A stretch of DNA of 64,000 bases from Sphaerolaimus hirsutus. Lineage: Eukaryota > Nematoda > Chromadorea > Monhysterida > Sphaerolaimidae. Positions 1,910-56,312 of this stretch are shown in pieces. The notes beneath the pieces were generated by a model, which saw only the letters and a program-made list of their open reading frames with translations, was not told where the DNA came from and made no database searches. A program made the translations under genes and the position numbers. Where the stretch lies: the NCBI GenBank assembly GCA_964036195.1, contig OZ038453.1, positions 14,979,206 through 15,043,205 of the forward strand, read 5' to 3'. The stretch's first letter is position 1. Every line of letters starts with the position of its first letter.

Positions 1910-2202
1910 TAGTGATGTAAAAGTGCCATGGCGCTGGCGCCTGGCGCTAGCGTCAAAGCAAAAAGCGCCAAGGCGCTTTTGGCGCTTGGCGCTATTTTTC
2001 TGTGGCGCCATTGGCGCTTGCCGCTATACTCATGAAAAGCGCCATGGCGCTTTTGGCGCTCTGCGCTATCTTTGGCCGGCGCCAGGAACAAAATGCCTGG
2101 CGCTGACGCTTGGCGCCATTTTGCTCTGGCGCCATTGGCGCTTGGCGCTATTGGTCGGAAAAGCGCCATGGCGCCAAAGTTCTGGCGCTTTTATCATCAC
2201 TA
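1910..2202. mobile_element. GGCGCC foldback element without spacer
   Basis: Starts TAGTGATGTAAAAGTGCCATGG and ends CATCACTA. About 290 bp of GGCGCC/TGGCGC words. Flanks TTACTGAC and CCCCTGAC agree at only five of eight bases, so the duplication is decayed or absent. Confidence 0.75.
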
Positions 2203-2279
2203 CCCCTGACATGTCGGAAAATCTCTCAAACATTTTATGTTAATAGAATGTGAATATTGCTTAAAGGCCTTTAAATCTG

Positions 2280-2807
2280 AGTAAACTCGGCGGACATGAA
2301 ACGAATCAGGTATTCGGCCCTTGGTTCCCAATGACGTATCTTTTTTAATTCGAATCTGAATGGACGGATTCCATTCGGTTCACGATACATTTAATTCAAT
2401 CCGACCTTTTCTAAGAGAACGATATGAATTTGATAGACATATCGTTACAGAAAGTCGGATTGTAAGGCATTAGGCCCGATCTTATCGTCGCGGCCCAGAT
2501 AGATTCCTCCGAAAAAGTACGTATGAAATTTGGCACACGTCCAAATTCCTTGCGTTTCATACCAAAAAGATTAAAGACGCCCGATTCCTGTTCGCGTCAC
2601 GATAATGGCCGCTGAATGTGATTAAGTAAACACAAGCTTTGCTTAATTGCATTCCGCTGCCATTATTGGCGACGTGAACAAAAATCGTGCATCGTTAAAC
2701 TTGTTTGCATGACACGCGAAAACTTGGACATATGCCAAGTTTAATTAGTCACACTCGTACAAAAATCCCGTAGAACAATGACTTCCAAAAAGTCCGCCGA
2801 GTTTACT
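2280..2807. mobile_element. AGTAAACTCGGCGGAC inverted-repeat element
   Basis: Perfect 16-bp inverted ends at 2280-2295 and 2792-2807. Interior unknown, with gaacgatatgaa inverted pairs. Confidence 0.85.
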
Positions 2808-4275
2808 GTATTTCCTCAAATACCCCCCTTGAATTAACCCTTCCAAGGTATACATGGAAGAAGGTATATCATGTATACGATATACATGGTGTATAAATTG
2901 GAACCAATTAGCATCGCAGACTGGTTCGTGTAGCGATACACCTAGATACGTCCAAGTACAACCTCGTTCGCTGCATTTATTACCAGTTAGTGTATGAATT
3001 AGAGCATTCTTTACTACAACCCGCCCTCGAAATACCCCCTCATAATTTCCACTCTGAAAAAATAAACCCCCTGTGGGTATTCCGAGGAAATACGGTATTT
3101 ATTAAGTATAAAATATTGAGTATTAACAACAAAATAAATTGATCGCGGATTTTCAAGAAATATAATAATCCCCTTAAAATATGCCGATGCTACCGGTACG
3201 GCACACAGGAATTTAACGTCCAATGTATGTGACGTCCACTCCAAAACAATTTTTGGATACACCCGTTTGTATACCGCCATTAACGATGACGAACCAACAT
3301 GCTTGTGTGGACCGCCATTTCCGGTCGTTTGATCGCATTCCGCGGCAATTATCAGTGACTCGGACGGAAATCCTGTCTTTTACTCTTGTTCTACTACAAT
3401 ACCCCACCGTATCCAAATACAAACTTGGACATAAGCCAACTTCACATAAGGGCCCCGATCCAAATCAACAATAGACCACTTGAAATCCGCCCATTGAGAA
3501 TCGAATTTAAGACATAAGTAATCGTACATGAAGTGGAACAAAATAATTTAGTGAGCAAGTGTGTCGGCTTTCTGATTCTGAATATCCTTGTAAAATATTT
3601 ATTGAGTTGTTCATCGACACAGACACCACATTGCGGTATTTTAAACTGAAACGCGTTCAAAGCTGATTTATTAGTTTACCAAAATCTGACAGTACAGGTA
3701 GTAAACGAGTGTGCGAAGCGCCATTTTATATAACTTTGGGGACCGCACACTATGCATCGTTCTGAAGTAAACACACGATTATAAAATCAAATTAAAATTG
3801 TCCAAAAATTGAGATAGAATGTGCAGGAAAAAGCATTCATCGAGTGTACCGTATTACCTCGAAATACCCCCATGAGGGTTTATTATTTTGCCAGCAAAAT
3901 TTGAGGGGGGTTAATTCGAGGGGGGTTATTCGAAGGGTTTTTTTTCATTTCGTCAGAAATTTTCGTAAGGATCGTAGTAAATAGTAGGCATTTGCGTACC
4001 CAGAAAAGGTAATAAATGTGTCTAAACAGGATATATATTTCGACATAAAAACATAGATAGCTACACAAACTAGTTATTTGTAGCTGCAATGCAAATTAGC
4101 AGTAATAAACACATAATGTACATTGCATACATGACGTATTTATTAGGTACATGAAGTACATCATTCCGGAGGGGGGTATTTGGAGGGGGTGGGGCTTATT
4201 ATTTCCACATCCCATTTTTTTTTTGGGGGGGGGGTTAATTCGAGGGAATTTTATTCAAGGGGCGATGATTCGAAG
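2806..4275. repeat. Cluster of CCGTATTTCCTCGAA-type elements
   Basis: Related ends at 2806 (tgtatttcctcaaatacccc), 3075-3100 (ccgaggaaatacggta), 3850 (cgtattacctcgaaatacccc) and 4160-4275. DNA between 3100 and 3840 has no gene signal; short ORFs there lack family resemblance. Confidence 0.65.
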
Positions 4276-4302
4276 CAATATTGTATGGAGCACTTCTACC
4301 TA

Positions 4303-8902: not shown

Positions 8903-9970
8903 TAGTGATGGAAAAGCGCCAGAAAAAAGGGCACCAAGCGCCAATGGCGCCATGGCGCCATTCGGAAAGTGGGCGCCACAGAAAAAGGGCGCCAAGCGCC
9001 AATGGCGCCATGGCGCCAGTTGAAAGTTAGGGCGCCAGGGTAAATAAATGCGTACAATACCCTGTGTGTGCTAGAAGTGTTTTTCCAACACTGTATTGCA
9101 CAAATTCACTTCCGTATTCACGTTCTCCAGTATGTAATCAACAAAAAAGCAACAAATCAACAACTAGCAACAATTTTTGAATAAAATCGTACTCCCACTT
9201 GACATTCACTTGACATGATGAAAATTTCCATTAGACAAAACAATGCATTCACTTCACATGGATTCGACATGGAAGCTGGCGGAAATGGAATTACGACAAT
9301 TTGAATCCGTTTATTTATGAGTTTGCAAGTTTGATGGTTCATCATTCTTAGCTGATGAACCGTTGGACCATAGGCGGCGTAAGTGCTTGTACACTTGTGA
9401 ATGTCACAAGCGGAATTTTTGGTGTCACAAGCGGAAATTTCACTGTCACATTGTGACATTCACAAACAAAAATGAGAGTGAAAGCTCAAAATTAGTCAAA
9501 AATTGCTTAAATTGTCTCCATTTTGCCAATTTTCACCTTTATAATCACTATTTTCATCTATATACATGGTTATATATCTATTTTTAGCCAATATTTGTCG
9601 TATTTATAGCAAGTTTGATCTTTTTGGCTGGCTGCCAACTTCACATAAGGGCTCTGGTAAGAAAGTGTCACAAGATGAAATTTTGGCTAATGTGAATGTC
9701 ACAAGCGCAAATTGGGACCTTGCGCCGCCTATGCGTTGGACGAAAAATTTCAATCCAATGTCAGTACTTTGTCCATTTTTCTGGTGAATTTCCGTTATCC
9801 ACTGACGCGCTTTTGTATTTTTTCTCATTTACGAGGCACTCACGTTGAAAGCCTGCTGGCGCCATTTTGCCGCCCTTCTATGGCAGGGCGCCAGGCGCCA
9901 AGGTCGCCACGGAGAAAGGGCCTTTGGCGCCCTCAAATGGCGCCTGCGCCATGGCGCCATTCCATCACTA
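8903..9970. mobile_element. GGCGCC-arm foldback element, 1068 bp
   Basis: Ends TAGTGATG...CATCACTA, with 8-bp duplication GTGTGTAT at 8895-8902 and 9971-9978. The left arm (to about 9035) and right arm (9855-9962) are dense GGCGCC repeats. The spacer between contains gtgacattcacaa words and a stretch related to the spacer of the element at 12810. Confidence 0.9.
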
Positions 9971-10996
9971 GTGTGTATACACTGCGTACACGTTATGAAT
10001 CTGCTGTCGCTGCCATACGTTAACATTCTTGTGTCTTTTCATCGGTCATTTTTGTGAATACTGTATCATATTTCTCATACAGAGGGGGGAGTTATTCAAG
10101 AGGGGGGAGTTATTCGAGAATGAGTTATTTTTTCGTCCTAGTTTTTGGGTCTTATGCGAGGATATACGGTACGTTTGCTTACATTTTATCAACAAGTTTT
10201 GTCGATACTTCACAAGTCCATGCGTTGGCTACGCTGGCACACTTCCAACGTCAGACATAACTCAGTGCGCGTGTAAACCGTGCGGTCAGCAGGAGCAGAG
10301 TATACGTTCAATGTATGTTTTTCATTGTGCAAACATTGTCACAATAATCAAAGGTAACTTTATCTAACAAAGAATGCTGCCCTTGAATATTAGAAAGTGT
10401 GAAAATGTGCTAGCTTCAATAGGGGGTGGATCTTAAAATATGGCTGAGTGTTTCAACTTTTTGTTTGTAGTATTGTGAAAAATGAATACGCCCCCTCCAA
10501 TAGTGTGTGTGACCCCTAACAATGTGTGGAAAACAATAATGCGACAGTCCCATTAATTGACAATTTATGGTACCTATTAAACATAGCACCGTAAATAAAG
10601 CACCAGTCTGTCTACATATTTACGGGTAACCGATAAATGACGGGATGAATCTGCCCAGGTGGATAACTTTCAAACACTTTCGGTTCGGGGTTTGTGAACG
10701 TGTGATATATGTGAATATATCTGAAGATCCATAAAACCTTAAATCATGTTTGAAAAACCGCATACTTTCATAATGCTATGAGTCCCCGCATCCAATGTAC
10801 CTATTCTATGCACATTGAATAATTGTTTGTATAAGAAAATGAACGTTTGTGATATTGCATTACGGTATTGTTGATGGATTTTTCCATTGTAATTAAAATG
10901 CGTCGCCATTTATAAAACAGCAAAATAAAATGCGCAAAATAAACACAATAAAACTGTTGTCAGATTGGCGAATAATGAAATCAACGGAAAGGCTGT

Positions 10997-11854
10997 TACC
11001 GTATTTCTTCTAATGCTGTGATTACAGCTCCGGCGTAAAATTGACTGGGTGTAAAATTGATTTTGGGCATAAAATTAATTACAGATGAATGGATAGACAT
11101 ATGACATTTTTATTTCAGTCAAAGAAAGCTTAGATGCAGACGTTTCTTGTGTCCAAAGCTCATGGGTATATTTGAATCGTACTGGGAGTTATGAATTTTA
11201 GCACAATTTTTTCAATTATGCGCTGTAAGTTGCATAAAATTAGGGTGTAAAATTAAAAACATTTGCACCAAAATTCATAACTTCTAGTCCAATTAAAATA
11301 AACTGATGAGCTTTGGATACAAGCAACATCTGCATGTGCCCTCTTTGACTGAAATTACAACGCCATATCTTTATCCATTCACCTGTAATTAATTTTACGT
11401 CCAAAAATCAATTTTACGCCTGTCCATTTTACGCTCAAGCTGTAATCGCAGCATAATAGAAATGTGCACTTCTATTTTTTCGTCAACTTGTTTACCTGCC
11501 CTTCTTTTGGAGACTGCCCTTCTATTATTTTCGTCAACATTTCAGCCAAACTTTTTCAAGTTCTGCCGAGGTTTTTCAAAGTGTTTCATCAGAGACAGTT
11601 CATAGAATGATGAAAATTTAACATTTGATGTTAAAATAGCACAAAATCAATGGACCAAAGTCATTAAATCACAGAATCCGCTTATATTTTCTATTTTTAT
11701 GCAATTGGCATTATTCCAGCACTTCTGTACCTTCTATTGGAGACCGCTTTTCTATTTATTTCGTGGCCCAAATTAAGTCGAAAAAGTGTACCTTCTTTCT
11801 GTTGGAGACGCTCTTCTATTAGAGACCTGCCCTTCTGTTAGAAGAAATGTGGTA
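10997..11854. mobile_element. TACCGTATTTCTTCTAAT element with inner palindrome
   Basis: Ends taccgtatttcttctaat...gttagaagaaatgtggta. The inner 11012-11452 is a palindrome built of gtaaaattga words (ctgtgattacagc / gctgtaatcgcag). Related termini at 41185-41776 and 61461-61990. Confidence 0.78.
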
Positions 11855-12007
11855 TTTAGGTATCGCGTTTGCTTGAAAAATTCTTCATCTTAAATAATTC
11901 CCCCATCTTGAATAATTTCCCCCAGTCAGATGAGTGAGGAAAAATAAATCCTCCCTGTCGTAGTTGTTAAAGCGCATTTACGTTTACTCGATAAATACGT
12001 AAATAGG

Positions 12008-12273
12008 TACCGTATTTCCTCGAATTACCCCCCGGGGTTTTATTTTGTCAGAGTGAAAATTTTGAGAGAAAAGCATGAAAAATGCAACAATAACCACCAT
12101 TTACAAGTTTTTACAGCCTTAGCTAAGGATGTAGATGGTATAAACGATGTTCTAACGTAACACAGTAAGTGTTTTGAACGTCTGTTATGCATTTCCTGCA
12201 CCACAAATTCATAGTGCCCATTTTGAGGGGGGTATTTCGAGGGGGGGGGGGGGTATTTCGAGGAAATGCGGTA
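12008..12273. mobile_element. TA-flanked CCGTATTTCCTCGAATTA element
   Basis: Ends taccgtatttcctcgaatta...tttcgaggaaatgcggta; consistent with a TA target (Tc1/mariner-like). Interior nearly identical to the copy at 44289. Confidence 0.8.
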
Positions 12274-12809
12274 TACTAAAGTACTGCGTGTGAAGCTCGG
12301 GAATTGATTTGGTGTTGATTGGGTCTCAGATCACTATATTTATAGTTACATTCAGACCTGTCGTCAGTCGGATCCACAGTCGTTAAAAATGGTTAATGTG
12401 AAAATAATATGATTGGTTCGGCTAACTGTGCTGCAGACTAATGATTAATTCTGTCTGCCCGCTAATCCATGGCAGCACAGTTGTAAATGAGAGTTTAATT
12501 TTACTCAAAAAGTATGCATACTCAAGTACGAAGTAAATACGCATAGGTATGCATATTTTGAAAAAAGTATCTGTACTTGCCTGTATGCTTACTTTTCGAG
12601 AGTACTCGGGTAGAGCAGAGTAATTTTGCGAGTACAGAAAGAGTATGTTTTCCACTTGAGACCCCTGCTTTTCAAACATAATACTTGTTATTTTAATAGA
12701 ATAAAACACCTTTTTGTCCAGTGTAAACATTCATAATGCTTCCTCCTATTAGAAGAAATAATGTATACGTTAGGGTTTTGCAGAATAATTCTGTATTAGG
12801 TTTGTGATG

Positions 12810-13672
12810 TAGTGATGGAATGGCGCCATGGCGCTGGCGCCATTTGAGGGCGCCAAAGGGCCCCGCGCCATGGCGCCATTGGCGCTTGGCGCCCTTTTTC
12901 TGTGGCGCCTGGCGCCCACATTCTGAAAGGCGCCATGGCGCCCTTTTTCCGTGGCGCCCTTGGCGCCTGGCGCCCTGCTTTAGAAGGGCGCCAAAAAGGC
13001 GCCAGCAAGGTTTCATGGTGAGTGCTGTGTAAACGAAAAAAAAGAAAGCCACATCCGTGGATGATCTAAATTTGCCAGAAAAATGGACGGAGTGGTGTGA
13101 GTGGGTGGAAATCTTTCGTCCAATGGTTCATCAGATCTGTCTGACGGATCAGAAGACAAGAATGATGGACCGTCTAACTTGCAAAATCATAAATAAATGG
13201 ATTTAAATCGTTGCAATTAGGAAACATTGTTTGGAAAGGTCTATTTGTAATGAATGGATTGTTGTCAAATGAAAATTTCCATTACGTTTGAATTCGTCAT
13301 GTGGATTTTATTCAAAAAAATTTTGTTCCTAGCCTTGTTTTTTGTCATTACATCCTGGAGAACGCGAATTAAGATCTGAATGCGCGTATAATGGTGCTGG
13401 ATAAACATTTTTAGCACACGCATCGTGTTGTAGGCACTTTTTTATCCTGGCGCCCTATTTTCCAAATGGCGCCATGGCGCCCTTGGCGCTTGGCGCCCTC
13501 TTCCCGTGGTGCCCCTGGCGCCTGGCGCCCACTTTCTCAATGGCGCCATGGCGCCCTTGGCGCCTGGCGCCCTTTTTCTGTGGCGCCCCTGGCGCTTGGC
13601 GCCCACTTTCCGAATGGCGCCATGGCGCCCCTGGCGCCTGGCGCCATTTTTTCTGGCGCTTTTCCATCACTA
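12810..13672. mobile_element. GGCGCC-arm foldback element, 863 bp
   Basis: Ends TAGTGATGG...CCATCACTA, with 8-bp duplication TTGTGATG at 12802-12809 and 13673-13680. GGCGCC arms lie at 12825-13010 and 13448-13660. The 430-bp spacer contains an ATGGTTCATC...AATGATGG segment also found, inverted, in the spacer of the 8903 element. Confidence 0.9.
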
Positions 13673-16008: not shown

Positions 16009-16395
16009 TGGGCGTGCAGATACGCACACGTGCCCGATACGCACATATGCCCGTTTTTTTCACTTGACACTTTTTCAAGTGATTTTCAGATATGAGTAAA
16101 GTGAAAAAAAGTTGCGCAATGACATTAGTGAACTTTTTTCACGTCACTCATATCTGAAAATCACTTGAAAATGTGTCAAGTGAAAAAAAACAGTGAAAAA
16201 TAGCCATTTTTCACTGTTTTTCATTTGACACATTTTCAAGTGATTTTCAGATATGAGTGAAGTGAAGAAGTTCACTAATGTCATTGCGCAACTTTTTTTC
16301 ACTTTACTCATATCTGAAAATCACTTGAAAAAGTGTCAAGTGAAAAAAACGGGCATATGTGCGTATCGGGCACGTGTGCGTATCAGGCCTGCCCC
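16009..16395. mobile_element. Double-palindrome version of the same element
   Basis: The cacttgacactttttcaagt palindrome occurs twice, joined by a second palindrome (cagtgaaaaatagccatttttcactg at about 16190). Flanks ATTTTACA at 16001-16008 and 16396-16403. It lies inside a CAGTCCC-type element (about 15897-16475). Confidence 0.82.
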
Positions 16396-16659: not shown

Positions 16660-17595
16660 TAGTGATGTTAAAGGCACCGGGAAAAATGGCACCGCACCGC
16701 ACCGGCACCTTTGCCAACACATGAAAAGGGCACCTGGCACCCTGGGGCACCGGCCAGAAAATGGCACCGCACCGCACCGGCACCGGTGCCTTTTGGAAAA
16801 AATGGCACCGGCACCGAAGGGCACCGGCGGGTTGCCGGTGCTAGCACCGAAAGGCACCGCACCGGGCTGGTATTTCTGAAGTAAATATCGGGCAGTTTCT
16901 CAGTGGTCTCACCTTTGGAAGTGCATATTTCCATGAATTTTCAACCGATTTTGATGGTTGAGCACTTAAAATGAACACAATGATGTGGCAATCACTTTTA
17001 TGAAGCAATTACATTATTACAAATGAAAGATAAAACATTTAATTCACTGCAATGTCCATAGCCAGTATTGTCTACTGATCGGAGTCGTTGCTGTACAGAG
17101 AATGGAAATATCTCTGTCATAAACTGACAACAAATTTTGAACAAACAAGTAAGATAAATATAAAATATAAAAATAATTTAAAATTCAACAAAATTTTAGA
17201 TTCGCTCATCAGATCACAAATCAGGTATAATGGATTTCACAGTAGGTATATTTATATGATGGGAGGTTTACAAAATAGGCAAAAACGGTTGGGTAAATAT
17301 ATCGCTGTTTTTTGAAATATGATCAAGCACATACTATCGACAAAATTGCACAGCACATGAAGCCTTGGCCGGTGCCTTTCCCGGTGCCTTTTACTTTGGC
17401 CCTGGTGCTAGCACCTTTGGCACCGGCAAAAAAATGGCACCGCACCGCACCGGCACCGGTGCTATTCTGAAAAAAATGGCACCGGCACCGGCATGGCACC
17501 CCAGAAGATTGCAATGGCACCGCACCAGCACCGGTGCTGGTGCCCTTCGGTGCCCAGCACCGGGGCACCGGTGCCCCGGTGCCTTTACATCACTA
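16660..17595. mobile_element. GGCACC-arm foldback element, 936 bp
   Basis: Ends TAGTGATGTTAAAGGCACC and (complement) TAGTGATGTAAAGGCACC, with 8-bp duplication CTGAGAGC at 16652-16659 and 17596-17603. The arms are iterations of GGCACC/GGTGCC instead of GGCGCC (16672-16866 and 17370-17586); the unrelated AT-rich spacer is about 500 bp. Confidence 0.9.
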
Positions 17596-18755: not shown

Positions 18756-19356
18756 ACACTTATGAGAAACATCGGCAGTTTGATACGAAAATTTGGGCGA
18801 CAAATAAGTAAGTAAAACGTTGTGTTATTATCATCACAAGCGTAAATTTTGGAGAACAAAAAAGTAGAAGTGCATGTTCAAAATAATATTAACGAACGCG
18901 TGAGTATATATTTACTCAAATCATGCATCTGTAAAGTGCTACTATTTTTCTCGAAGGTTTTCCTAGGTCGCCAGCAAATTTTGAGGGTGGGGATCAGAGT
19001 TGTTAAAAGTACCGAACTTTTTTCAAAGTATACGTAAACGTAAAGTATTTATTTTTTACTCACACCTTGAGTACAGAAAACGTAAAGTAAATTTTTTTCA
19101 CTTTTACTCATGAGTAAACCTGAGTAAACGTACTTTTCCCTGCAGAAAACGTAAACGTGATTTCTTTTGAGAAATGTCGCCAAAATTTTCGAGAAATGTC
19201 ACTCAAAATCACTCATTTTCATAACGTTTTGCCTATTTTATGCGATTTTTGACTATGTTTGTTTCATCTACCCATTTTCAACTAGTTTCCCATATTTTTA
19301 GCACATTTTCTCCCTTTTTTCCATTCTATGCTTTAAAGACCGTTATAAAAGACGAT

Positions 19357-20994
19357 CTAAAATACGTTTTTCAAAAAATGTGATCTGCTGTCTACAAAGC
19401 AGTCAGATGGATCATGGGGCATTGGGCCTCCATGCAGATAATGTGTGCACCATGGCCCTTTGTGTGTTTTTGGGTCAAAAGTTGTCTGTATTTTGGCCTG
19501 TGCGCTGCATGCTGCATTGGTGCTTTGCAGTTTTTGTTCTGTTCGCACACTCTGATCAGCATTGTGGTAGTTTGCCCGCCCATTCCAGTTCCCACTGTAC
19601 CTTTGGTGGGGCGGCTGGATTTGTTCTTCTTTGCACTGTGCACGGTTTCTTTCCACTGATTGCCGCGCTGCTTCCATCATGGTTACTGCCATGTCCAATG
19701 TGCAGGCATCCTCAGCCCAGCATTGCTGCCACATATACCAGCAAGATGCTGGGACCAGTTTTGGTACTTCAATGAACAACTTGTCACCGATCATTTGTTC
19801 CCGGTCCCTGTCTGATAGCCGCTCGCTGATGTGGTAAAATTTGGTACACAGGCGTGTATATAGCTCTGTTACCGACTCTCCGGCCATGGCTTTTAGGTTG
19901 TACCAGTCCGCCACTGAGTATATTTTGTGGTCTAACCGGTAAATTCCAATTAACTTATCTACCACATACAAGATGTCGTGGCGTCTGGCAATCCTGATAC
20001 TCAGGTACCGGTTCTGGGCATCGTTGATTAAACATTGCTGGAATACACTGTTCCAAAAAAGCTGTTGCTGGCTTTCTGGCACCCCCATGGACTGCTGCAT
20101 GACCATGTGGAGCCAAAATTTGAAAGGGCCAGTCTTGCTCTTCTGGTCACCATCAAATTTTATCTGCTTGCTCGCAACTGACGCTACATGTCCCACACTC
20201 ATCCGGTTGTTGGGTATGACTTGCTCACTTAATCGTGGTAACCCATCCCCTGGTGATAGCACGTATTGTTCCATGTATGCAATCATTCGTTCTAGTATTG
20301 ACCCCTGTGGTAATGTTGCCAAACGGTCATCTGTTCCCAATCTCCATGGGTCGCCGGTTTGTGGGGTCTGGTTAGTTGCTGGCGGAACGTTCGCTGCGGG
20401 GCTTGGGGATGGTTTGGGCATCGCCACTGCTTGCCCCTGCTGCATGGTCAAATTAGCTAGGTGCGTGAGTATCTGCTGCTGCTGCTGCGCTTGTTGCTGC
20501 ATCACCGCCACTAACGCCGAAATATCTGACGATTTTGCGTTGGCTTTTAATTTGCGTCGCGGGGTGGGGACGTAAGCCGCGCGGTGTAGTGCCCCTGCGA
20601 CCGGACGGATCACAGGCGACGTGTCTTTGTCTGTGTCGTCATCTGAGTCCCCTTCAGGGTCTTCCATGGTGATGCTGGTGTCTTTTTTTGTGCTGAAATA
20701 TTTTTCTGCCAGCTTTAGCACTTTTTTAGCCAACACTTCGGTGCCATCTTTCCATGGTGAATTGAATTTTGGCCACTTGTCTTGGCGGTGCTGATTTAGC
20801 TCATTTCCGGCATTCAATAGGGACCATCTGTCTGCTGCTAGGGTCCACTCATTGATTTTTTGCGTGAGTTCGAGCTCCGTGTATGTGACTTGGCGGGCTT
20901 TTTTCCGCGAGTCCATTTTCCCTGAGGTTCCAGGTGCATTCTCATTGGTGTCAGGCATCTTGTGCCTACCGGGTGCTCGTGTGGCGCGCCGCAC
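19357..20994 (-). CDS. Retroelement Gag-like protein, copy 1 (545 residues)
   Basis: One uninterrupted reading frame with a Lys/Arg-rich N-terminus, an acidic stretch rich in Asp, a Gln-rich tract (encoded by CAG/CAA runs), and a central helical region with the W/L/Y pattern of retrotransposon Gag capsid domains. Near the C-terminus a Cys/His cluster (C-x-H...H...C) could be a degenerate nucleic-acid-binding knuckle. GC content is clearly higher than the surroundings. No protease, reverse transcriptase, integrase or LTR is visible in the window, so this is a lone gag or the front of a decayed element. It lies inside the 18995-23323 element and in the first of two tandem units. Family (Ty3-like or other) not determined. 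A domesticated gag is possible but nothing here proves it. Confidence 0.72.
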   Translation of the reverse strand: MRRATRAPGRHKMPDTNENAPGTSGKMDSRKKARQVTYTELELTQKINEWTLAADRWSLLNAGNELNQHRQDKWPKFNSPWKDGTEVLAKKVLKLAEKYFSTKKDTSITMEDPEGDSDDDTDKDTSPVIRPVAGALHRAAYVPTPRRKLKANAKSSDISALVAVMQQQAQQQQQILTHLANLTMQQGQAVAMPKPSPSPAANVPPATNQTPQTGDPWRLGTDDRLATLPQGSILERMIAYMEQYVLSPGDGLPRLSEQVIPNNRMSVGHVASVASKQIKFDGDQKSKTGPFKFWLHMVMQQSMGVPESQQQLFWNSVFQQCLINDAQNRYLSIRIARRHDILYVVDKLIGIYRLDHKIYSVADWYNLKAMAGESVTELYTRLCTKFYHISERLSDRDREQMIGDKLFIEVPKLVPASCWYMWQQCWAEDACTLDMAVTMMEAARQSVERNRAQCKEEQIQPPHQRYSGNWNGRANYHNADQSVRTEQKLQSTNAACSAQAKIQTTFDPKTHKGPWCTHYLHGGPMPHDPSDCFVDSRSHFLKNVF

Positions 20995-21218
20995 GTGTAT
21001 TGGGTTTACGCTGCGGTGGTTGTTTGCGCTGCCGGCGCTGCTGCCAGCTGCACAGGTTCAGTATACTTTGTATGTGTTGTACGATCACCATGTAACACAC
21101 TGGGCAGCGCTAAGAGGCAGGCTCACCCAATGTGTTATCCAGCTGCGAGCCTCCAAAGAGCTCGCCAACACTGGCAAGATGAGAAGTGAGAAAAATAGAA
21201 CGTTTGGGGTGCGATGTG

Positions 21219-21277
21219 ACATTTATTTATATTAATTCACCGTCGCCTTGCGACGGTGAATTAATATAAATAAATGT
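21219..21277. repeat. 27-bp perfect hairpin at the gag tandem junction
   Basis: Arms 21219-21245 and 21251-21277 are perfect reverse complements around a 5-nt loop (ccttg). The right arm is an inverted copy of the end of unit 1. The second unit ends with the left arm and loop only (to 22957), so the hairpin exists only at the junction. Confidence 0.92.
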
Positions 21278-22697
21278 ACCTATAAATCCAGTTCCCACTG
21301 TACCTTTGGTGGGGCGGCTGGATTTGTTCTTCTTTGCACTGTGCACGGTTTCTTTCCACTGATTGCCGCGCTGCTTCCATCATGGTTACTGCCATGTCCA
21401 ATGTGCAGGCATCCTCAGCCCAGCATTGCTGCCACATATACCAGCAAGATGCTGGGACCAGTTTTGGTACTTCAATGAACAACTTGTCACCGATCATTTG
21501 TTCCCGGTCCCTGTCTGATAGCCGCTCGCTGATGTGGTAAAATTTGGTACACAGGCGTGTATATAGCTCTGTTACCGACTCTCCGGCCATGGCTTTTAGG
21601 TTGTACCAGTCCGCCACTGAGTATATTTTGTGGTCTAACCGGTAAATTCCGATTAACTTATCTACCACATACAAGATGTCGTGGCGTCTGGCAATCCTGA
21701 TACTCAGGTACCGGTTCTGGGCATCGTTGATTAAACATTGCTGGAATACACTGTTCCAAAAAAGCTGTTGCTGGCTTTCTGGCACCCCCATGGACTGCTG
21801 CATGACCATGTGGAGCCAAAATTTGAAAGGGCCAGTCTTGCTCTTCTGGTCACCATCAAATTTTATCTGCTTGCTCGCAACTGACGCTACATGTCCCACA
21901 CTCATCCGGTTGTTGGGTATGACTTGCTCACTTAATCGTGGTAACCCATCCCCTGGTGATAGCACGTATTGTTCCATGTATGCAATCATTCGTTCTAGTA
22001 TTGACCCCTGTGGTAATGTTGCCAAACGGTCATCTGTTCCCAATCTCCATGGGTCGCCGGTTTGTGGGGTCTGGTTAGTTGCTGGCGGAACGTTCGCTGC
22101 GGGGCTTGGGGATGGTTTGGGCATCGCCACTGCTTGCCCCTGCTGCATGGTCAAATTAGCTAGGTGCGTGAGTATCTGCTGCTGCTGCTGCGCTTGTTGC
22201 TGCATCACCGCCACTAACGCCGAAATATCTGACGATTCTGCGTTGGCTTTTAATTTGCGTCGCGGGGTGGGGACGTAAGCCGCGCGGTGTAGTGCCCCTG
22301 CGACCGGACGGATCACAGGCGACGTGTCTTTGTCTGTGTCGTCATCTGAGTCCCCTTCAGGGTCTTCCATGGTGATGCTGGTGTCTTTTTTTGTGCTGAA
22401 ATATTTTTCTGCCAGCTTTAGCACTTTTTTAGCCAACACTTCGGTGCCATCTTTCCATGGTGAATTGAATTTTGGCCACTTGTCTTGGCGGTGCTGATTT
22501 AGCTCATTTCCGGCATTCAATAGGGACCATCTGTCTGCTGCTAGGGTCCACTCATTGATTTTTTGTGTGAGTTCGAGCTCCGTGTATGTGACTTGGCGGG
22601 CTTTTTTCCGCGAGTCCATTTTCCCTGAGGTTCCAGGTGCATTCTCATTGGTGTCAGGCATCTTGTGCCTACCGGGTGCTCGTGTGGCGCGCCGCAC
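21261..22697 (-). pseudogene. Retroelement Gag-like protein, copy 2, C-terminally truncated
   Basis: Offset from copy 1 by exactly 1703 bp with no indels and only a few base changes, one of them changing an amino acid (Lys to Glu near residue 154). The frame leaves the shared sequence after about residue 470 at the tandem junction and then reads 8 or so foreign residues from the hairpin DNA before a stop. It has therefore lost the last ~75 residues, including the Cys/His cluster. The near identity points to a very recent duplication or an assembly duplication. Confidence 0.75.
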
Positions 22698-35629: not shown

Positions 35630-36458
35630 TAGTGATGTGAAAAGCGCCAGAGTTTTGGCGCCAAACGCCAAAAGCGCCATGGCGCTTTTCCATGTGTGGC
35701 GCCAGGCCCAATGGCGCGAGACGAATTTAGCGCCAGGCGCCAAAAGCGCCTTGGCGCTTTTCCGGACTGTAGCGCCAGGCGCCAATGGCGCCAGAGAACA
35801 ATGTCGCTAAACGCGCCAGCGCCAAAAATTTCTTAATATTTATCTGCGCGGTTAGTCCATCTACATAAGTAGGTATCTTCTACATAAGTAGGTATCTTCT
35901 ATATACCTAGGTAGGTATCTAAAGAACTAGATGGTCAATACACCTTTTTAAAGGGTATTCCTTTTTTGGGGTGCCAATGAAAAACGTGAAACATTCTGCA
36001 CCAAATTCACATTTTTATTGGGGATGGCGAAAGTTTCAGTTGGTGACTGATTTCAAGCAAATGAGCATGCCATTTATGGATATGCTATTTATGCAAACAT
36101 CAGGGTAGATATTTATCAATGACACTTTGATTTTGAGAGAACCTGAATGTATTGTTATAACTTAGTTGAATAACTATAATACGTATGCAACGTAAAAACT
36201 ATTATTTTTTTGTCATAGTTGATGCATCGCTCAAAAAGTACATAGATCATATGGCGCTTTTTTGGCGCTTTTTAAATCGCTAGCGCCAAGCGCCAATGGC
36301 GCCACGGCATTAAAGCGCCAAGCGCCAAAAGCGCCATGGCGCTTTTGACGTTCACGGCGCCAAGCGCCAATGGCGCCACGGCAGAAAGGCGCCAAGCGCC
36401 AAAAGCGCCATGGCGCTTTTTGCTTTGGCGCTAGCGCCATGGCGCTTTTACATCACTA
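35630..36458. mobile_element. GGCGCC-arm foldback element, 829 bp
   Basis: Ends TAGTGATGTGAAAAGCGCC and (complement) TAGTGATGTAAAAGCGCC, with 8-bp duplication GTCCTTAC at 35622-35629 and 36459-36466. Arms 35643-35825 and 36250-36450. The AT-rich spacer includes a short tandem of ctacataagtaggtatctt near 35868. Confidence 0.92.
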
Positions 36459-37483: not shown

Positions 37484-40400
37484 CATGCGGCGGGCTGGGC
37501 CGGGGGCTCCTCAAAAGCTCCTGAATATGTTGCACGATCAAATTTATAGCCACCACATTCTCCTCGCCCCTGGGGGCACTCCCAGACCCTGTAAAAAGCC
37601 CTGTAAAATATCAAAATGTCATGCAAAGTGTCAAAATTCATGAAAAATTCCCTGCAAAATGGCAACTTGGTTGCCATTTTGCAGGGCATTTTCCATGACT
37701 TTTGACACTTTGCATGGCATTTGACATTTTACAGGGCTTTTTACAGGATCTGGGAGTGACACCTGGGCACGATCACGTCGGCGTACTTTTTGGTCGGCAG
37801 ACAAAATTCCTCGTAAGCGGGTTTGACGAATTGCAGATATTGCTTCAGAATGGATTCTAGGGTGCGACCGCGGTTCGCCATGTCGCGTCTGACTGCGAAA
37901 AAATGGGGGGGGGGGTTTGAGAGGGGGTTTTAAATGATGGATTACGGTAGTGTAGCTGGTGCCACTCCCAGGCCCTGTAAAATGCGCACCTTGTGAAATA
38001 TCAAATGTCAAAAGTGACTTAAATACTGTAATGTCAAACGACCGGTCGAAAAAAGTGAAGAAAATTTGACATTTTGCATGACCTTTGACATTTCGCATAG
38101 CATTTGACAATGCCCAGGAAACAATAAAAATGATACATTTCAAAATTTAAAATGTTCAAACACTAAATATTTAAACACTTTAGACATTTAAAATATTCAT
38201 ATACATCAACAAAATCTAAATTCTTGTAATCACATAAAAACCGCGATAAAAATCTGACCTCTCCTAGCGAGCCTTATATCGGGATCTGCGTCAACAAACA
38301 GCTTCAAATTGAACAAATCCCTGTAATGATCGTCATAGAACACCAGAATCCCCTCGAATAGAATAACATCGGCTGGGTCAATTGTTTTCGACTCGCCAGG
38401 TACCCTGTAATATTTTTTGTGACTTTTATCAGAGGGGTATGGTGGGGGTTGATAAGGCTGCCCCCCCCGCCTTAATCGGCCAGCTGCACGCCTATATATT
38501 CATCTAACCAGAGGCAAAATTCCGATGGTCCTATGGTCCAAAAAATTGATCACAAAACAAACCTAGAATTTGTGTGGAAATCGTAAACAGGCAATGAAGC
38601 TGACTGGCCGCTTCTAAGTCGCAGCAAAGTGTCTTTTAGTAGTTTGTGATCGATCGCGTCTGCGATTATATAGGGGGATAAAACGGATGTGAGTGATAAG
38701 TGGAGAAGTTACCGCACTTGACAATAGGGTTGGCAAGCGATTTTTTTTAAGCGATTTTTTTTTAAATTTCGATTTTTTTTTTAAATCGCAGCACCCGTAC
38801 CGATTTTTTTTAAAAAAAATCGCTGGCAAAAAATTTTGGTACTCAAGCACTAGGTAAAATGCAAAAATTTTGCGCGCGAGCGCGCACTTTCATGCAAACA
38901 ATCCACAAGTTGCTTTTTTCATGGCTTTGACAACCAATTTGGGGGGTGTAGTACCCATTTATGTGTGCTTTTAAGCGTGTAAGGTAGGCTGTGAATTATT
39001 TTAGGAAGTATTCATAGTTATGCTTTGTGTTGTCACATCTAACATTTATGCAAAATGCATCCATGTTCACTTCCAATATCATTTATATTTTGTTCTGAGC
39101 AAGAACATGCTATTTCTGCAAATAAAATTGCAAATTGTCGATGAAGTGTGATTCACGTCACAAATATAACAATTTAATTACATTTACACTTAAAAATAAC
39201 TGACTTTCAAGCTTTTCCAAAGCTCTACTGTACTTATATTAGCACAGAAAGTATAAGTGTGCACTCCCTACCAATTTATATGGCTTTTATTACCCCCAGA
39301 GGCGATTTTAGGCAGAAATGGGGCTAAGTTTGACCCCAGCGATAAAATAAATCGATTTTTTTCCAACCCTACTTGACAATCTGACAAAAAAAAGTGTGAA
39401 GTGTAATACACAACACACGGGGGGGGGGTTAAAAACGTATACCCTTCATTGGATCCAGCAAGGACGTACCCAGGGACAGTCCCAGTCCCTGAAAAAAGTC
39501 CTGGCAAATGTCATGCAAAGTGTCAAAAGCAGGGGTCTCCTAGGGGGGGGGGGGGCTGGGGCCCCCCAAATCGGCCAGCTATCTATCTATCCCGGAGGCC
39601 GCTCAGCTATCTATCTATCCTGAGGCAAAATTTTTGGCTACTACCTAGGGTTGGAAAAAAAACGTTTTTTTTTAACTCGATGTTTTTTAAAAAAAAACGT
39701 TTTTTTTTAAAGCTCCCAGATATGACCTAGTGTCAACATATATAGGTATATCAGACACTGGCAATACTCTGTGATGTTAAATATGACCATATAATGGCTG
39801 TGGAGCCATGGGATAGCATTATAAGTGGTGATTTGGGTCAAAAATATCCATTTTTCGTGGACATATCGTTCGTATATTGCCTTATAGTCGAATGTTCGAG
39901 ACTTCAGGTAAAGTTTGGCACGAAATGGTGATCAAACAAGGTTATAAAAGGAGGTTGTTACTTTGGGAGTGAAGTTACACACTGTGGAGGTACATGGAAG
40001 CACATTACCTCAATATTATATATTACAGCAACATATGTCGGCTTATTCACCCATGGTAGCACATAGAAATGGATGTTTTGATACTAAAAATGCAACAAAA
40101 CCAATGAAAACAACCACCAATGTCAATTTGTGTGTGAAATTGCGCGCTTGCGCGCAAAAATTTTGCAAAATACCCAGTGCTTAGTACTAAAAATTTCGGC
40201 CGATGTTTTTTTTAAAAAAAAAACATTTCGGACGTCATGTTTTTTTTTTTTAAAAACGTTTAAAAAAAACATCGGCCAACCCTTACTACTACCCCAAAAG
40301 ACCCCCCCCCAATCGCTCAGCTATCTATCTATCTGGAGCGGTTTTTGAGAAATTTTGTTCCAATTTTCGCTCAAAATCACTAATGTTCGCACCTTTTTAT

Positions 40401-42235
40401 AGTTTTTCACCTTCAAAATCGTGCTTTCCGGCTATATACATGGTTATTTACCTATTTTTACGTTTGCCATTTGCAGGGCATTTTACTTGACTTTTGACCA
40501 GGGGTCTCCAATGGGGGGGGGGGCGGTTGGGGGGGTCCCCCCCCCCAAACCGCCCAGATAACTAGCTTTTCAAGCTCACTATCTATCCCGAAGGCCGCTC
40601 AGCTATCTATCCACCCCACCCGGAGGGTCAAAATCTAGGAGACCCCTGCTTTTGACACTTTCCATGACATTTGACATTTTACAGGGTCCGGGACTGGCGC
40701 CAGGGGGGCTCCAATCCAACAAAAATAAGTCCCCATCCTAAACCCACCGGGATGGTCAAAATTAAAATCGAACGTTCTAGCCTTCTCAGCTTCCCCCTCG
40801 GTCAAATCCCTGTAAAAACAATCCTGCGCGATTATAGCCACTTGTCGCCTTTGTTCGTGAGTCAATTGCTCCATGATTTTGCGACACACGGATGACTGGA
40901 AATTTTGAGGGATTTTTTTGAGTGGGCGAAATCGTAAATTAGGGGAAAAAGTGGAAAAAAGAGTGTTACATTCAACATACAGGTCCATTACACTGTTTGT
41001 CTCTCTACACATACCGGAGTGGCAATTACAGATGCCAGTGTGTGCAGTGCACATGCACGCATGCGGTGTTATGGCATTGCATGTGGATGCGTAACATGCA
41101 TGTATTTATGTGAATCAAATTGTCTATTTTCAGCGGCTGTGTGATCAACATCCATGGTACGTGGATGCTAAATAAAAAGTGTACAGAATTTTTCTAATAG
41201 AACGGCATACCTCCAATAGGCGTTTTATACTTATTGTCAGTACTTTTATATTGCATACGGCGTGGCTTGGGTCAACGGGTGTGCAACAGACGTCATTATG
41301 CGGCTTAGGCGGATTAACGTGACGTTTGTAGATAAATTATGAAATACAGACAAAGAAATAATTGAGTGCATGATTACACGCCACACAATGTGTCTTGATA
41401 AAACAACGCAAAGTTTTCACCTGCATATGAATGACAGTCAGTTGCAAAAAAGTGCCGAAATTGTGCAAATCATTGATCATAAGTTCATTTGTAAATCACT
41501 GCACTGTATTATTTTTTACTTTACATATGAATTGCGCTATTTGTGCTAATGGCGTCTGTCGCACACTCATTGACCCAAGCCACGCGCGTATGCAATCGAA
41601 AAGTACTGACAATAAGTATAGTGAACCCTCCAATAGAACAGCACCTTCAATAGAACAGGGCAGGTTTTGGCACTTTTTACTACCCACGAAAAAAATAGAA
41701 CGGCAGCCTCCAATAGAACGGCAGATAAAAAATTGACGAAAAATAGAACGGCGCTCTTCTATTAGAAGAAATACGGAATTTATTTATCAGGCATGAGTAC
41801 TAATCGCTATTTTGTGTCAATCATGTTAAAATAAACTATCAGTACCGCACTGAAAACACGGAACTGAAGACGTTTGGACGGAAATTTCCTACTACACACC
41901 CAGGGTGTCAACTAGGTTTCCATGTCAATTCAAATTTTAGTCGACAGGTCGCAGGACAATTATCAAGTGCACACGTCCAAAGGAAATCAAAGTGTAATTT
42001 AACGTAGTTCTGCAACCGTGAACTAAAAATCGCATCGAAATCCAGCCGGCCCAGTTGACACTGTCAACTAATGCATAGGGCCTTCAAAACAACTCACCTT
42101 TCCACTGGCGGTGCCCCCGGCCACGCCAATGATAAATGGCGTCTTTCCAACCCTATTTTCGCCATTTTCCGAACCATTACAAACGACCTCTTCTTGGCAA
42201 CTGGCGCCGGACGCCATGGAATTGGCGCCAGGCAT
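37484..42235 (-). CDS. UCK: Uridine-cytidine kinase, 6 exons recovered
   Basis: Cytosolic pyrimidine-salvage kinase that phosphorylates uridine and cytidine with ATP. Exons: 42235-42098, 40895-40748, 38659-38563, 38404-38259, 37892-37763, 37569-37484, all in phase (248 codons plus one base). Seen: P-loop GGTASGKS (residues 40-47), AQDCFYR with the catalytic Asp, [67 protein letters not shown] and [16 protein letters not shown]. The order and length match animal UCK1/2 (about 260-277 residues). A strong donor (CATG|GTGAGT) after the last helix suggests one more short exon; otherwise the frame reads through repeat DNA to a stop at 37362. Two in-frame ATGs (42235 and 42217) could start translation. 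Intron 2 (38660-40747) is packed with nested elements and intron 5 is itself an element. Confidence 0.96.
37575..37759. mobile_element. CAGTCCC/CACTCCC element forming UCK intron 5
   Basis: Ends ggcactcccagaccctgt and (complement) tcactcccagatcctgt, then aaaaagccctgtaaaa on both sides; centre made of TGTCAAA/ATGTCA words. The UCK intron is 37570-37762, so only a few bases of intron are not element. Flanks CCCCTGGG (37567) and CACCTGGG (37760) agree at 7 of 8. Confidence 0.85.
38725..39371. mobile_element. TAGGGTTGG element, 647 bp, in UCK intron 2
   Basis: Ends tagggttggcaagcgattt and aaatcgatttttttccaaccct(a), with 8-bp duplication CTTGACAA at 38717-38724 and 39372-39379. A/T-run arms (gattttttt) surround a unique spacer. 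Confidence 0.9.
39646..40285. mobile_element. TAGGGTTGG element, 640 bp, nested in UCK intron 2
   Basis: Ends tagggttggaaaaaaaacg and cggccaaccctta, with 8-bp duplication CTACTACC at 39638-39645 and 40286-40293. The arms are aacgttttttttt words. The spacer includes a segment (gctatcccatggctcc and neighbours) also seen, inverted, near 56860-56960. Confidence 0.9.
40499..40648. mobile_element. CAGGGGTCTCC element, 150 bp, with AGCTATCTATC words
   Basis: Ends CAGGGGTCTCC...GGAGACCCCTG, with 8-bp duplication CTTTTGAC at 40491-40498 and 40649-40656. The core has G and C runs plus agctatctatc. It is inserted in the middle of a CAGTCCC-type element. Confidence 0.88.
41183..41777. mobile_element. 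TTCTAATAGAACGG element
   Basis: Left tttttctaatagaacggca, right ctattagaagaaatacgg. Core words ccaatagaacggca. Lies between UCK exons 1 and 2. Confidence 0.7.
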
Positions 42236-52149: not shown

Positions 52150-52860
52150 GGGGGGGGGGGGGTTGTGGGGTGAATCCACTTTAACATGTTGTGTACTTTA
52201 ACATGTTGTGGAATGTAACATGCCGCCATGTGAATCTGACATGTTGTGGAAACTGACATGCCAAAAGGTGAATGTAACATGTCTAGCGTGAATGTAACAT
52301 GCCAAGCTCAAAGGTGAATCTAACATGCGAAGCGTGAAACTGACAAGCCCTGCACATGTGGTCGCAATGCATTCAATTTTTCCAAACAATAGTTTTCAAA
52401 TTTTTGAATACTTTTTAGTACTTTTTGAATTTTTTAATCTTTTTGATCACTACAATTGTTTTCCACTAAATTTTTGCATTTTCAAATTTTTAGAAAAAAA
52501 TTGGGGGTTTTCTAGGGGTGAAATAAAAATTTAAAAAGTCAAAAAATTTTGATATTTAAATTTTTGAATTTAAACTAAAAAAATTTAGAATTCAACATTT
52601 GAGAAATTGACAAACATGGTGATAATGATTGATCACTGATCATGATTTCATGCACATGAGACATGCCTCATACCAAATATGTAGGGCATGTCAGTTTTAC
52701 CCTTCTCATGTTAGATTCACCTTTTTGCTGGGCATGTTAAATTCACTTTGGACATGTTACATTCACCTTTTGGCATGTCAGTTTTCACAACATGTCAGAT
52801 TCCCATGACGGCATGTTACGTTCCACAACATGTTAAAGTACACAACATGTCAGAAAGGCC
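52150..52860. repeat. ACATGTT-word element
   Basis: Left arm 52165-52350 and right arm 52640-52855 are iterations of (gtgaat)(ct)gacatg / taacatgttgtg, in inverted orientation, around an A/T spacer. No target duplication found. Confidence 0.8.
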
Positions 52861-53594: not shown

Positions 53595-54012
53595 CAGGGA
53601 CGTAGCCAGGATTTTTGAGCGGGGGGGGGCGGATTGAATACGGAGCTCGGCGAACGGGGGGGGGGGCGCCCCCCCCTCAAATTTTACCATTGTAGTAGGG
53701 GAATGGCGCTGGCGCCATTCGTAGGTGCCATGCCATGGCGCCACTGGTGTTGGTAATGGCGCAAAACAGCAGTATACGCTGTATTTTACAGGCATTTAGA
53801 GCGACACGGACAGGAATTGAGTCCATTTTCACTGACTTTGAGGCCCGAGCAGTCGAAAATATACGTTGTGGAGGGAAAATACGCGCTTGCGGGCAAATTT
53901 TTTTCAAATTTTCGACAAAATCGTCTTCTGAAAGTGCCATTTCTGGCACATTTTTTCGGTCCCGCCCGGGAAGGGGGGGGGGCGGCCGCCCCCCCCCCTG
54001 GCTACGTCCTTG
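53595..54012. mobile_element. CAGGGACGTAGCCAGG element, 418 bp
   Basis: Ends cagggacgtagccagg...cctggctacgtccttg, flanks GTTACATG and GTTACATT (7 of 8). Contains long G/C runs and a short GGCGCC segment. Second member of the family at 58177. Confidence 0.85.
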
Positions 54013-54019
54013 GTTACAT

Positions 54020-55700
54020 TTGAAAATAAAACTCATTTTCACCGCATAAAAGTGGTGACAAAAGTCAAGTATCACACGAACAAGAACATCGGTACACATT
54101 TGCATGGTTCATATTTTGCAAATCTATAAAATAACTCTACACACGCGAAATTATTTTCAACCAAAAAAAACATCACAAAAAATCTCAAAAGACATCACAA
54201 GACTGAAAAAATCGCACCCATTTAGCTGATTGAAAAACGCATGTAAAATAACATGTAAAATGCATACCACTGCAGCTAAATACATGCGCCAATCAACATG
54301 TTGCATCGCAGCGCAGCGAAAATGTTCATGTGCTTTTGCACATTAGTTAGAAGCGAGGCGAGCTTCAGTTGATAATCATTGGCGGGAAATTTTGATCATT
54401 AATTTTTACAATTTTCCATATTTATACTGGTTTAATAAAACAATTTCGAACGTTAATTGGAAATTATCAGACACAAAAATCAGAAAGCACGAATTCTGCC
54501 AATGGCAAAAAATCTAAAAATTGGCTTCCTGCCAATTCACAGAGACAGTGCATAGCAATGCAGTCACAACAAGACATTCCTTTCTGTCTGACTACTGTGT
54601 AGCTGAATGTAAATGCCAACTTCAAAGATATGCAATAGACTATGAAAATGGGTGTTATATATTTCCTGGCCTATTTGTTTATACAATAGCACCTGACACT
54701 TTAATGTGATGAATTTTTGGCGAAGTTTTTAAATTGTCTGATCTTGAAAAATCCAGTGAAATAAAATGCGCCGGCTGGAGTGGGGAGAATGTAAAAAAAG
54801 TTCAAGATCTGAATAAACTTCGACGAAAATTGCGGGGCGAGAGTAGCAACGCAAATGCACACAAGGTTTCAATTTTTTTCTACCTTTTGTCTGCAAAAAA
54901 ATAATAAAAAAATAAAAGTCAAAACCCAAACTCAAAACCTTCAAACAACCCAATCCAACTGAAAACTATCTACAACAAGCACAAAATCGGTCTCTAAATT
55001 CCCTATCTTACTGTAATGACTCAGAAAGGGCCAATTTCCAGTGCCATATGAGCCTTAATGTGCACTTGAACGGCAGCTCAGAGAAAAGGCGCCAACACAC
55101 ACTCAACGCAAAATAGCACTGCACCTTACATAGGTAAATACACGATTTGAATACATAAGAATGTATATGGGATGGCTTATAAAACAGTTCTCGTTGGCAG
55201 CTGTTGACACACAAGGCACGCACTTTGGTTGTTCCAAAAATACTGGGACGGTTTATGGGTTAAAGGGGGTGGGTCGAAATTGAAGTAGGGCTCAAATGGG
55301 ATACAGATAGGCAGTGAAAACAATCATGGGAGATTTATATCAGTAATAAAGTTACAAATATACTTAAATAATTATATATTTTTTATGTTTTTCAAGAAAG
55401 ATAAAATTATATTCTCCTTTGATGTTTTTGACATTTTATTTTATTTTATTTTCACAAAATCACATGTTGTTTGGTAATTAAAGCACTTTGGTTCTAGAGA
55501 GCTTTCAGAGTTTGTCAGAACCTAATTTGGTTCTAGAGGCCTCAAAAAATCCAGAATAGTCCAGTATGGATGGCCGCATATTTTCAAAGGTTTAGAAAAC
55601 ACAAACATCAAAACCATTTTTTACCCTCAGCAAAAGTTTCAGTACTTATGCACTAGGTATTTTGCATTTTTTCACACGTGTGCACTTTCACTTTCAGGTA
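54020..55700. other. Intergenic DNA, no supported gene
   Basis: Short ORFs at 54521-54709 and 54729-54953 have no recognisable motif; the second has a TTTTTTGCAG acceptor-like site at its 5' side on the minus strand and could be an exon, but nothing confirms it. Confidence 0.4.
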
Positions 55701-55724
55701 CACATTACATTCATTGGTTTTGAG

Positions 55725-56312
55725 TAGGGTGTCAAAAAAAATTTTTTACGGAAAACGGAAACGGAAAAATTTTTCAGTGGCCAGAAAACGGAACGGAAAA
55801 CGGAAAAAAAATTGGACTTGGCGGGAAACGGAAACGGAAAAAAATTTTAGCGAGCGGAAAACGGAAAAAGAGGCCGGAAAAACGGAAACGGAAAAATCAA
55901 ATTTGCACGGAAATGGAAAAACTTGCTGAAATTTTGCCAGAAAAAGGATAAAATTTGCAGTAATTTTGCTGGAAACACAAACAAAATTTTACATCATTGA
56001 CAATCTGCAAGAATTTTTACCAGTTTTGCTGATCAGAAAACAGAAAGTTGAGCCAGAAAAAGGTAAATTGAGACGGAAAAATGGAAAATTGAGGCTGAAA
56101 ATGAAAAAAAAGTGGAAAAACTGGAAATTGAGGCGGAAAAAGCGGAAAAAAAGGCGGAAAAACTGAAAATTTAGCCGGAAAACAGAAAATGAGCCGGAAA
56201 AACAGAAATGGAAAAAAAGTTGCCGGAAAACGGAAAAAAAATTTCAGCAACCGGTTAACGGAACGGAAAACGGAAAAAATTTGCCTGCGGAAAACGGAAA
56301 TTTGACACCCTA
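55725..56312. mobile_element. CGGAAA-word element, 588 bp
   Basis: Ends TAGGGTGTCAAA...TTTGACACCCTA, with 8-bp duplication GTTTTGAG at 55717-55724 and 56313-56320. The interior is almost wholly iterated cggaaa/cggaaaa words on one strand, giving a strong purine bias. Lys/Arg-rich ORFs here are repeat translation. Confidence 0.92.

Follow-up and report, generated by a model that had tools for sequence, protein, structure and literature searches.

The 64,000-nucleotide stretch of the Sphaerolaimus hirsutus genome analyzed here (contig OZ038453.1, positions 14,979,206 to 15,043,205; hereafter, the window) contains a series of transposable elements whose arms are built largely of one short word that is repeated many times and differs between element families. 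These array elements are best read as nonautonomous hAT transposons, and their arms are probably arrays of a putative subterminal transposase site, hyper-expanded in a lineage-specific manner. The analysis covered the window, a 264-kb sample consisting of the window and the next 200 kb, and the complete 348-Mb assembly of 762 contigs.

The hAT assignment, already made in the original prediction, is strongly supported by 8-bp target duplications with a T2/A7 base bias, by empty sites, and by hAT dimerization exons located within elements that have the same ends and words. Short terminal inverted repeats of the hAT form (TAG..CTA or CAG..CTG) are present in the window and in the 264-kb sample, where TAG/CAG-ended pairs number 33 at a duplication length of 8 bp versus 6, 2, 0, 0, 0, 0, and 0 at 4, 5, 6, 7, 9, 10, and 11 bp; two elements, at 185902 and 197147 in the coordinates of this sample, have the same duplication (GTCAAGAG) and could represent a single insertion that was later duplicated. 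Within the window, exact duplications next to ends with at least 10 of 12 matching bases yielded, when lengths were compared on TA/CA starts, 12 pairs at 8 bp (one of which, 9229-13271, is probably due to chance) versus 2, 1, 0, 0, and 0 at 5, 6, 7, 9, and 10 bp. With all starts pooled, the window gives 17, 23, 6, 23, 4, and 6 pairs at 5 to 10 bp, and 30 runs of a block-wise Markov control produced 0-2 pairs per run with any start, against the 23 observed. Each of the eight 8-bp duplications in the original list is exact and borders an element with inverted ends.

The duplications, whose absence from other copies had been named as a ground for doubt, recur at copies elsewhere in the genome. 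A search of the genome with the element at 1910 returned 3,934 first-look candidates, 40 of which were scored, and exact 8-bp duplications were found at TAGTGATG ends in 15 of the 20 fetched loci (one of the 20 being the window copy; one locus, L006, spans a tandem array). Among the remaining loci, L005 retains 7 of the 8 bases and the window copy and L008 retain 5, and L010 and L020 provided nothing usable. The fetched loci contain 30 exact pairs at 8 bp, including repeats from the tandem loci L006, L008, and L017, versus 1, 1, 0, and 1 at 6, 7, 9, and 10 bp. In L006, L008, and L017 (C7:1320547-1325647), TAGTGATG elements recur at a spacing of about 870 bp, apparently through tandem duplication of an element-holding unit.

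Duplications were pooled from 59 elements, a set without L001, L006, and L008 in which only the shortest pair was retained for each start and the TAGTGATG family is overrepresented. In these duplications, T occupies position 2 and A position 7 with a frequency of 0.60 each, both bases being present in 22 elements. The same bias has been reported for Hermes (PMC8721813). For 28 insertions, the two flanks were joined and matched against the available DNA; a paralogous empty site with a single target copy was readable for nine, although several of these differ from the duplication by 1-3 bases; matches for 55725 and L017 were too poor and were not used. The empty site of 8903-9970, found in L020, has an exact target and 76% identity over 331 columns, and that of 58177-58626 is located in the window itself (59461-59168; 94% over 294, with 7 of 8 target bases).

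The elements delineated in the window are as follows (strand unassigned except where given).
360 to 1567: hAT-type element with TAGCATTC ends, duplication TCCCCAGT, and 11 copies of AATCAC.
1910 to 2202: TAGTGATG element, 24 GCGCCA words from end to end, with a degraded duplication (5 of 8 bases).
8903 to 9970: TAGTGATG element, 23 GCGCCA words in the arms, duplication GTGTGTAT, empty site in L020.
9369 to 9733: element nested in the preceding one, CATAGGCGG ends, duplication CGTTGGAC, six TGTCAC words; empty site in the sister element 12810-13672.
12810 to 13672: TAGTGATG element, 43 GCGCCA words in the arms, duplication TTGTGATG; in the right arm, a 74-bp multi-word unit is repeated 2.9 times.
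16660 to 17595: TAGTGATG element, 35 GCACCG/CGGTGC words in the arms, duplication CTGAGAGC.
18995 to 23323: CAGAGTTGTTAAAA element (end also given as CAGAGTTGTTAA), arms with AACGTAA, duplication GTGGGGAT; two long similar open reading frames (ORFs) inside.
24144 to 24235: 92-bp element, TAGGGTTGG on the left and GAACCCTA on the right; flanking 8-mers GTCTTGTA and GTGTTGTA agree at 7 of 8 bases (partly by eye).
35630 to 36458: TAGTGATG element, 38 GCGCCA words in the arms, duplication GTCCTTAC.
38725 to 39371: TAGGGTTGG element, nine AAATCG words, duplication CTTGACAA.
39646 to 40285: TAGGGTTGG element, A/T runs with AACGTTT, duplication CTACTACC; right end CCAACCCTTA (one base off), empty site in L018.
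40499 to 40648: CAGGGGTCTCC element lacking any word array, with duplication CTTTTGAC and empty sites within the window.
55725 to 56312, plus strand: TAGGGTGTC element, 25 CGGAAA words, all on the plus strand, duplication GTTTTGAG; same family as the transposase-bearing elements of L031 and L041.
58177 to 58626: CAGTGGCGTAGCC element, arms free of arrays, with duplication ATGGCAGC; window 59461-59168 provides the empty site.
61588 to 61685: element of 98 bp, TAGGGTTGG ends, ATATCG words; 5 of 8 bases agree between the flanking 8-mers (partly by eye).

Measured against 200 dinucleotide shuffles, the words of the window elements are strongly enriched: GCGCCA occurs 43 times in 12810-13672 (1.4 expected, shuffle maximum 5), CGGTGC 35 times in 16660-17595 (0.5 expected, maximum 3), and CGGAAA 25 times in 55725-56312 (2.0 expected, maximum 6). 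In the 264-kb sample, 33 elements, with or without arrays, make up 12.3% of the DNA, and all but two of them (one longer than 3 kb and one without a word of at least four copies) were scored; 11 of these 31 carry one word in 26-45 copies, always within the outer 35% of either side. Each array is dominated by one 6-mer (GCGCCA, GCACCG, CGGAAA, CGGTTC, ATATCG, AAATCG, and others) that is kept to the arms, and short repeats adjoin the terminal repeats inside both ends of the array elements. The enrichment and the confinement to the arms support the original proposal that a single word, different in each family, has taken over the arms. The GGCGCC and GGCACC arrays reported there are real, but the commonest 6-mers in them are GCGCCA/TGGCGC and GCACCG/CGGTGC. 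A derivation of the GGCACC arms from GGCGCC by wholesale CpG decay is ruled out by their CpG observed/expected ratios of 0.80 and 0.68 (0.89 in the window). In 1910-2202 the duplication is degraded, with 5 of 8 bases in agreement, and some window elements of hAT form, such as 40499-40648, lack an array.

Arrays of this kind could also have arisen passively, with short hAT repeats growing by slippage and unequal exchange into words that bind nothing and merely hitchhike. Tandem multi-word units of 74-75 bp, present both in and beside the elements, fit such expansion, as does the fact that, of 96 control segments taken from outside the elements, 10 have a best word with a z score of 15 or more; this word belongs to the element families in five of them and is a different one in the other five. 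The median best-word z score is, however, 6.4 in these segments compared with 18.9 in the 31 elements, 19 of which reach 15. Moreover, the words are irregularly spaced (2, 5, 6, 7, 9, and 16 bases), unlike a microsatellite, and are confined to the arms; several families carry arm arrays of different words, which sort by transposase lineage and resemble known hAT sites in kind. We therefore regard passive growth as an unlikely explanation, and the ordinary microsatellite expansion that the original prediction had set up as its refutation accounts neither for the irregular spacing nor for the restriction to the arms, even if the outside segments with high scores speak for it.

The junction TAGTGATGNNAAAAGCGCC, consisting of the end and GCGCC, occurs 2,371 + 2,318 = 4,689 times in the genome (0 for the reversed-pattern control), and searches of the prokaryote and virus collections with two element-end patterns gave 0 matches. 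Copies of 354 bp at different sites, which carry the word nearly end to end, are very alike by reading, which suggests recent spread. Ends and words do not correspond one to one. The TAGTGATG ends are combined with GCGCCA (22 elements, a pooled count inflated by the loci recovered with a GCGCCA query) or GCACCG (3), the TAGGGTTGG ends with CGGTTC (3) or AAATCG, ATATCG, and ACCCGA (1 each), the TAGGGTGTC ends with CGGAAA (7), and the TAGGGTTCAAACG ends with ATATCG or CGGGAC. We interpret these combinations as families that switched words while keeping their ends, although ends this short could also match by convergence. The several families had been described as unrelated, but they are not plainly so: some combine common ends with different words.

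The word arrays can be connected to hAT transposases in three lineages. The genome contains 28 matches to the hAT dimerization domain (PF05699), all above the cut-off. The best of these is located inside a TAGGGTGTC element at C4:15146117-15147327, about 103 kb past the window, which has the duplication TTCACAAC and 34 CGGAAA words, and the second best is in a sister TAGGGTGTC copy on C15 with the duplication CCTAAGAC and 35 CGGAAA words. Both elements (L031 and L041) possess both ends and the duplications with the hAT ORF inside, and Pfam confirms the dimerization ORFs of both. A 120-aa hAT ORF has matches at 81 places in the genome; a protein search with it returned nothing at an E value of 1e-3. 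Out of all PF05699 and 120-aa ORF places, 12 further loci (L042-L053) were read. Exons of lineage A (L031, L041, L044, L045, L046, and L048) accompany CGGAAA, and the unaligned L047 and L051 contain 7 and 5 CGGAAA words in the counted stretch. Lineage B, with a pair of exons in L049 and single exons in L050 and L052, is found with ATATCG and TAGGGTTCAAACG ends, one end being in view. Lineage D (L043 and L042) has CAGAGTTG ends and ACGTAA, with 15 words and the duplication GCACCATG in the L043 element. Exon identity is 51-97%, 63-91%, and 56% within lineages A, B, and D, and 20-48% between lineages. Three transposase lineages are each associated with their own word. The proposed search for autonomous hAT copies with the same ends has thus been answered in part, dimerization ORFs being present in CGGAAA, ACGTAA, and ATATCG elements without an intact transposase.

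CGGGAC was considered as a transposase-linked word at L051 and ruled out, since the element that bears it begins within or next to a degraded lineage-A exon. In L052 (1-1101; C9:13718620-13719720), the remnant of an ATATCG transposon is interrupted by a nested CAGGGACGTAGCC element, and L049 retains the corresponding uninterrupted stretch. ORF scans of the window listed no hAT domain in 133 of its 168 ORFs of at least 75 aa. Among 164 element-interior ORFs, 106 were scanned, including the nine hAT exon ORFs; nine match PF05699 and are taken as those nine.

In our reading, the arms are transposase-site arrays of an extreme kind, because both Ac and Hermes need sequence past their terminal repeats and because the words match known kinds of hAT sites. 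The word would be the site for the N-terminal DNA-binding domain of the family's own hAT transposase, and a dense array might capture a multimeric transposase and load it beside the terminal inverted repeats. Hermes itself forms an octamer that loads through its BED domains on subterminal repeats (PMC10368747). Copies with more words could then compete better for the shared enzyme. The arrays probably lengthen partly through tandem duplication, on a local scale, of the 74-75-bp multi-word units. Different words go with different transposase lineages, and they would change together with the enzyme instead of simply being passed down with it. The chances seem to us evenly balanced that, in this one genome, many hAT lineages have had their arms repeatedly turned into lineage-specific site arrays amounting to a natural enzyme-word code, with word switching behind the same ends and with one-way polarity marking the ends.

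Several observations weigh against the interpretation of the arms as transposase-site arrays. The agreement of lineage and word may be plain co-inheritance. The L042 exon has only two ACGTAA words in the part examined, and no array is present within 1.1 kb of the L053 exon. No transposase is linked to the commonest family, that of GCGCCA, or to those of GCACCG and CGGTTC: four hAT exons compared with the 264-kb sample matched no TAGTGATG or TAGGGTTGG element, so that only their ends and duplications mark these families as hAT. The elements read yielded no intact transposase, and none of the genome's eight zf-BED matches is near a hAT exon, although Pfam is reported to miss such DNA-binding domains in CGGBP1 (PMC8097297); hence, the elements read are nonautonomous or decayed. 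In 11 of the 58 elements of the pooled set scored for copy number, no 6-mer reaches nine copies, and this word-poor group includes all eight CAGGGACGT, CAGGGGTCT, and CAGTGGCGT elements. Finally, the Ac transposase binds AAACGG hexamers cooperatively and three suffice, and some hexamer-bearing Ds-like elements are immobile (PMC3260210).

Alternatively, the protein drawn to the words might be a DNA-binding protein of the host, either a transcription factor or a BED protein that has been domesticated, with a helping or silencing effect on the elements. On C1:7466186-7680097, seven of the genome's eight zf-BED matches lie together, possibly a cluster of hAT-derived host genes, and host proteins derived from hATs bind CGG or GCGC sites (PMC8097297). 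A single factor, however, would not explain words that differ by family, and the precedents of Ac and Hermes favor the transposase; capture of a host factor is accordingly very improbable.

The original description of the elements as foldbacks with the word in both orientations applies to the GCGCCA and GCACCG class and, loosely, to ATATCG, the arrays of which mix orientations. It does not apply to CGGAAA and CGGTTC: in all eight CGGAAA and three CGGTTC elements with at least 12 words, the words in the outer 40% of each side point in the same direction (a ninth CGGAAA row, 71811, is merely the nested element 72375), and in 55725-56312 the plus strand has 25 words and the minus strand 0. Foldback is therefore not the common design. 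Arms that matter through pairing as inverted repeats, forming hairpins or cruciforms, would suit the mixed orientations of the GCGCCA arms and their many short palindromes (e.g., TGGCGCCA and GCGCCATGGCGC), but the arms of the 11 one-way elements are not long inverted repeats of each other and are unable to pair mutually. Pairing is excluded as a general design, and we give it the least credence of all the alternatives. As a conjecture, the polarity of the words in one-way arrays could distinguish the left end from the right, supplying the asymmetry that Hermes appears to need: Hermes left ends made symmetric lose activity, and restoring the asymmetry of the first 50 bp does not rescue it (PMC10368747).

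Some features of the window fall outside this class or touch it indirectly. The TGTCAAA, ACATGTT, CACTTCT, and CAAGTGA arrays had been said to look like the elements described here, with less clear ends. Reading these regions by eye revealed no TAG/CAG ends with 8-bp duplications, and these arrays are not assigned to hAT here. Three regions (37560-37765, 62056-62476, and 29400-29490) have ends like CTCCCAGACCCTGTAAAA and TGTCA/CATGACA words, and TAG/CAG ends or an 8-bp duplication were not seen there. At 16019-16384, 120-bp inverted arms that are 99% complementary contain CAAGTGA words and outer ACGCACA/GCACATGTGC motifs; at 52184-52850, 179-bp inverted arms, 90% complementary, are built on ACATGTT and have no clear hAT ends. 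A 74-bp GCGCCA-rich unit is repeated 4.1 times with 99% likeness at 33960-34266, adjoining a TAGTGATG right end at 34407, and this array is a recent local expansion. The element 18995-23323 encloses near-identical tandem ORFs of 566 aa and 499 aa (19360-21057 and 21264-22760, minus strand) for which Pfam gave no match; a protein search with the 566-aa ORF found no relatives at an E value of 1e-3. Other ORFs of the window have Pfam matches to Erv1/Alr, the uridine-kinase family, a neurotransmitter-gated channel, and methyltransferases.

If the arms are indeed transposase-site arrays, knowledge of hAT end recognition would expand from a few model elements to a natural library of several transposase lineages and repeated putative sites, and any coevolution of transposase specificity with site arrays, any advantage of site density for nonautonomous elements, and the origin of left-right asymmetry would become testable. 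For annotation, it matters that arms of this kind could be mistaken for low-complexity sequence.

The closest known system is maize Ac/Ds, whose TAGGG-type ends are like those found here and whose hexamer AAACGG is a permutation of CGGAAA, so that the CGGAAA arrays contain the Ac hexamer. Ac/Ds also shares the 8-bp duplications, a subterminal hexamer, and nonautonomous derivatives with only the ends and hexamers in common (PMC3260210). Ac, however, needs only three hexamers in its ends, whereas the arms of the CGGAAA elements counted here consist of 12-35 words, all pointing in one direction on both sides, and the word is a different one in other families. Hermes likewise has subterminal repeats and 8-bp duplications with the T2/A7 bias (PMC8721813), but its repeats are of a degenerate 4-base form, AAG(T/C), 17 and 14 per end, asymmetric and set in ordinary sequence, whereas here the word is most of the arm. 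The DNA-binding domains of the hAT-19/CGGBP type prefer CGG, GCGC, or AT-rich sites matching the subterminal regions of the corresponding hATs, and the words described here fall into the same three kinds; that work, in the portions available, covers proteins and motifs rather than arrays (PMC8097297), and no N-terminal domain was found in the present elements for comparison. Long, internally repetitive ends are also typical of the foldback elements Galileo, Tm1, and Tetris. Galileo is assigned to the P superfamily and Tm1 to Mutator, unlike the hAT elements of S. hirsutus with their irregularly spaced 6-bp words and, in two families, non-inverted arms. The sea-urchin TU elements, also of the foldback kind, have 8-bp duplications and arms of repeats of about 15 bp. 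In full-text searches, mostly of non-subscription papers, we recognized no description of one-word arms, of different words behind the same ends, or of one-way arrays. Subterminal repeats as such are known from these systems; the one-word arms, the variety of words behind the same ends, and the one-way arrays appear to be what the S. hirsutus elements add to them.

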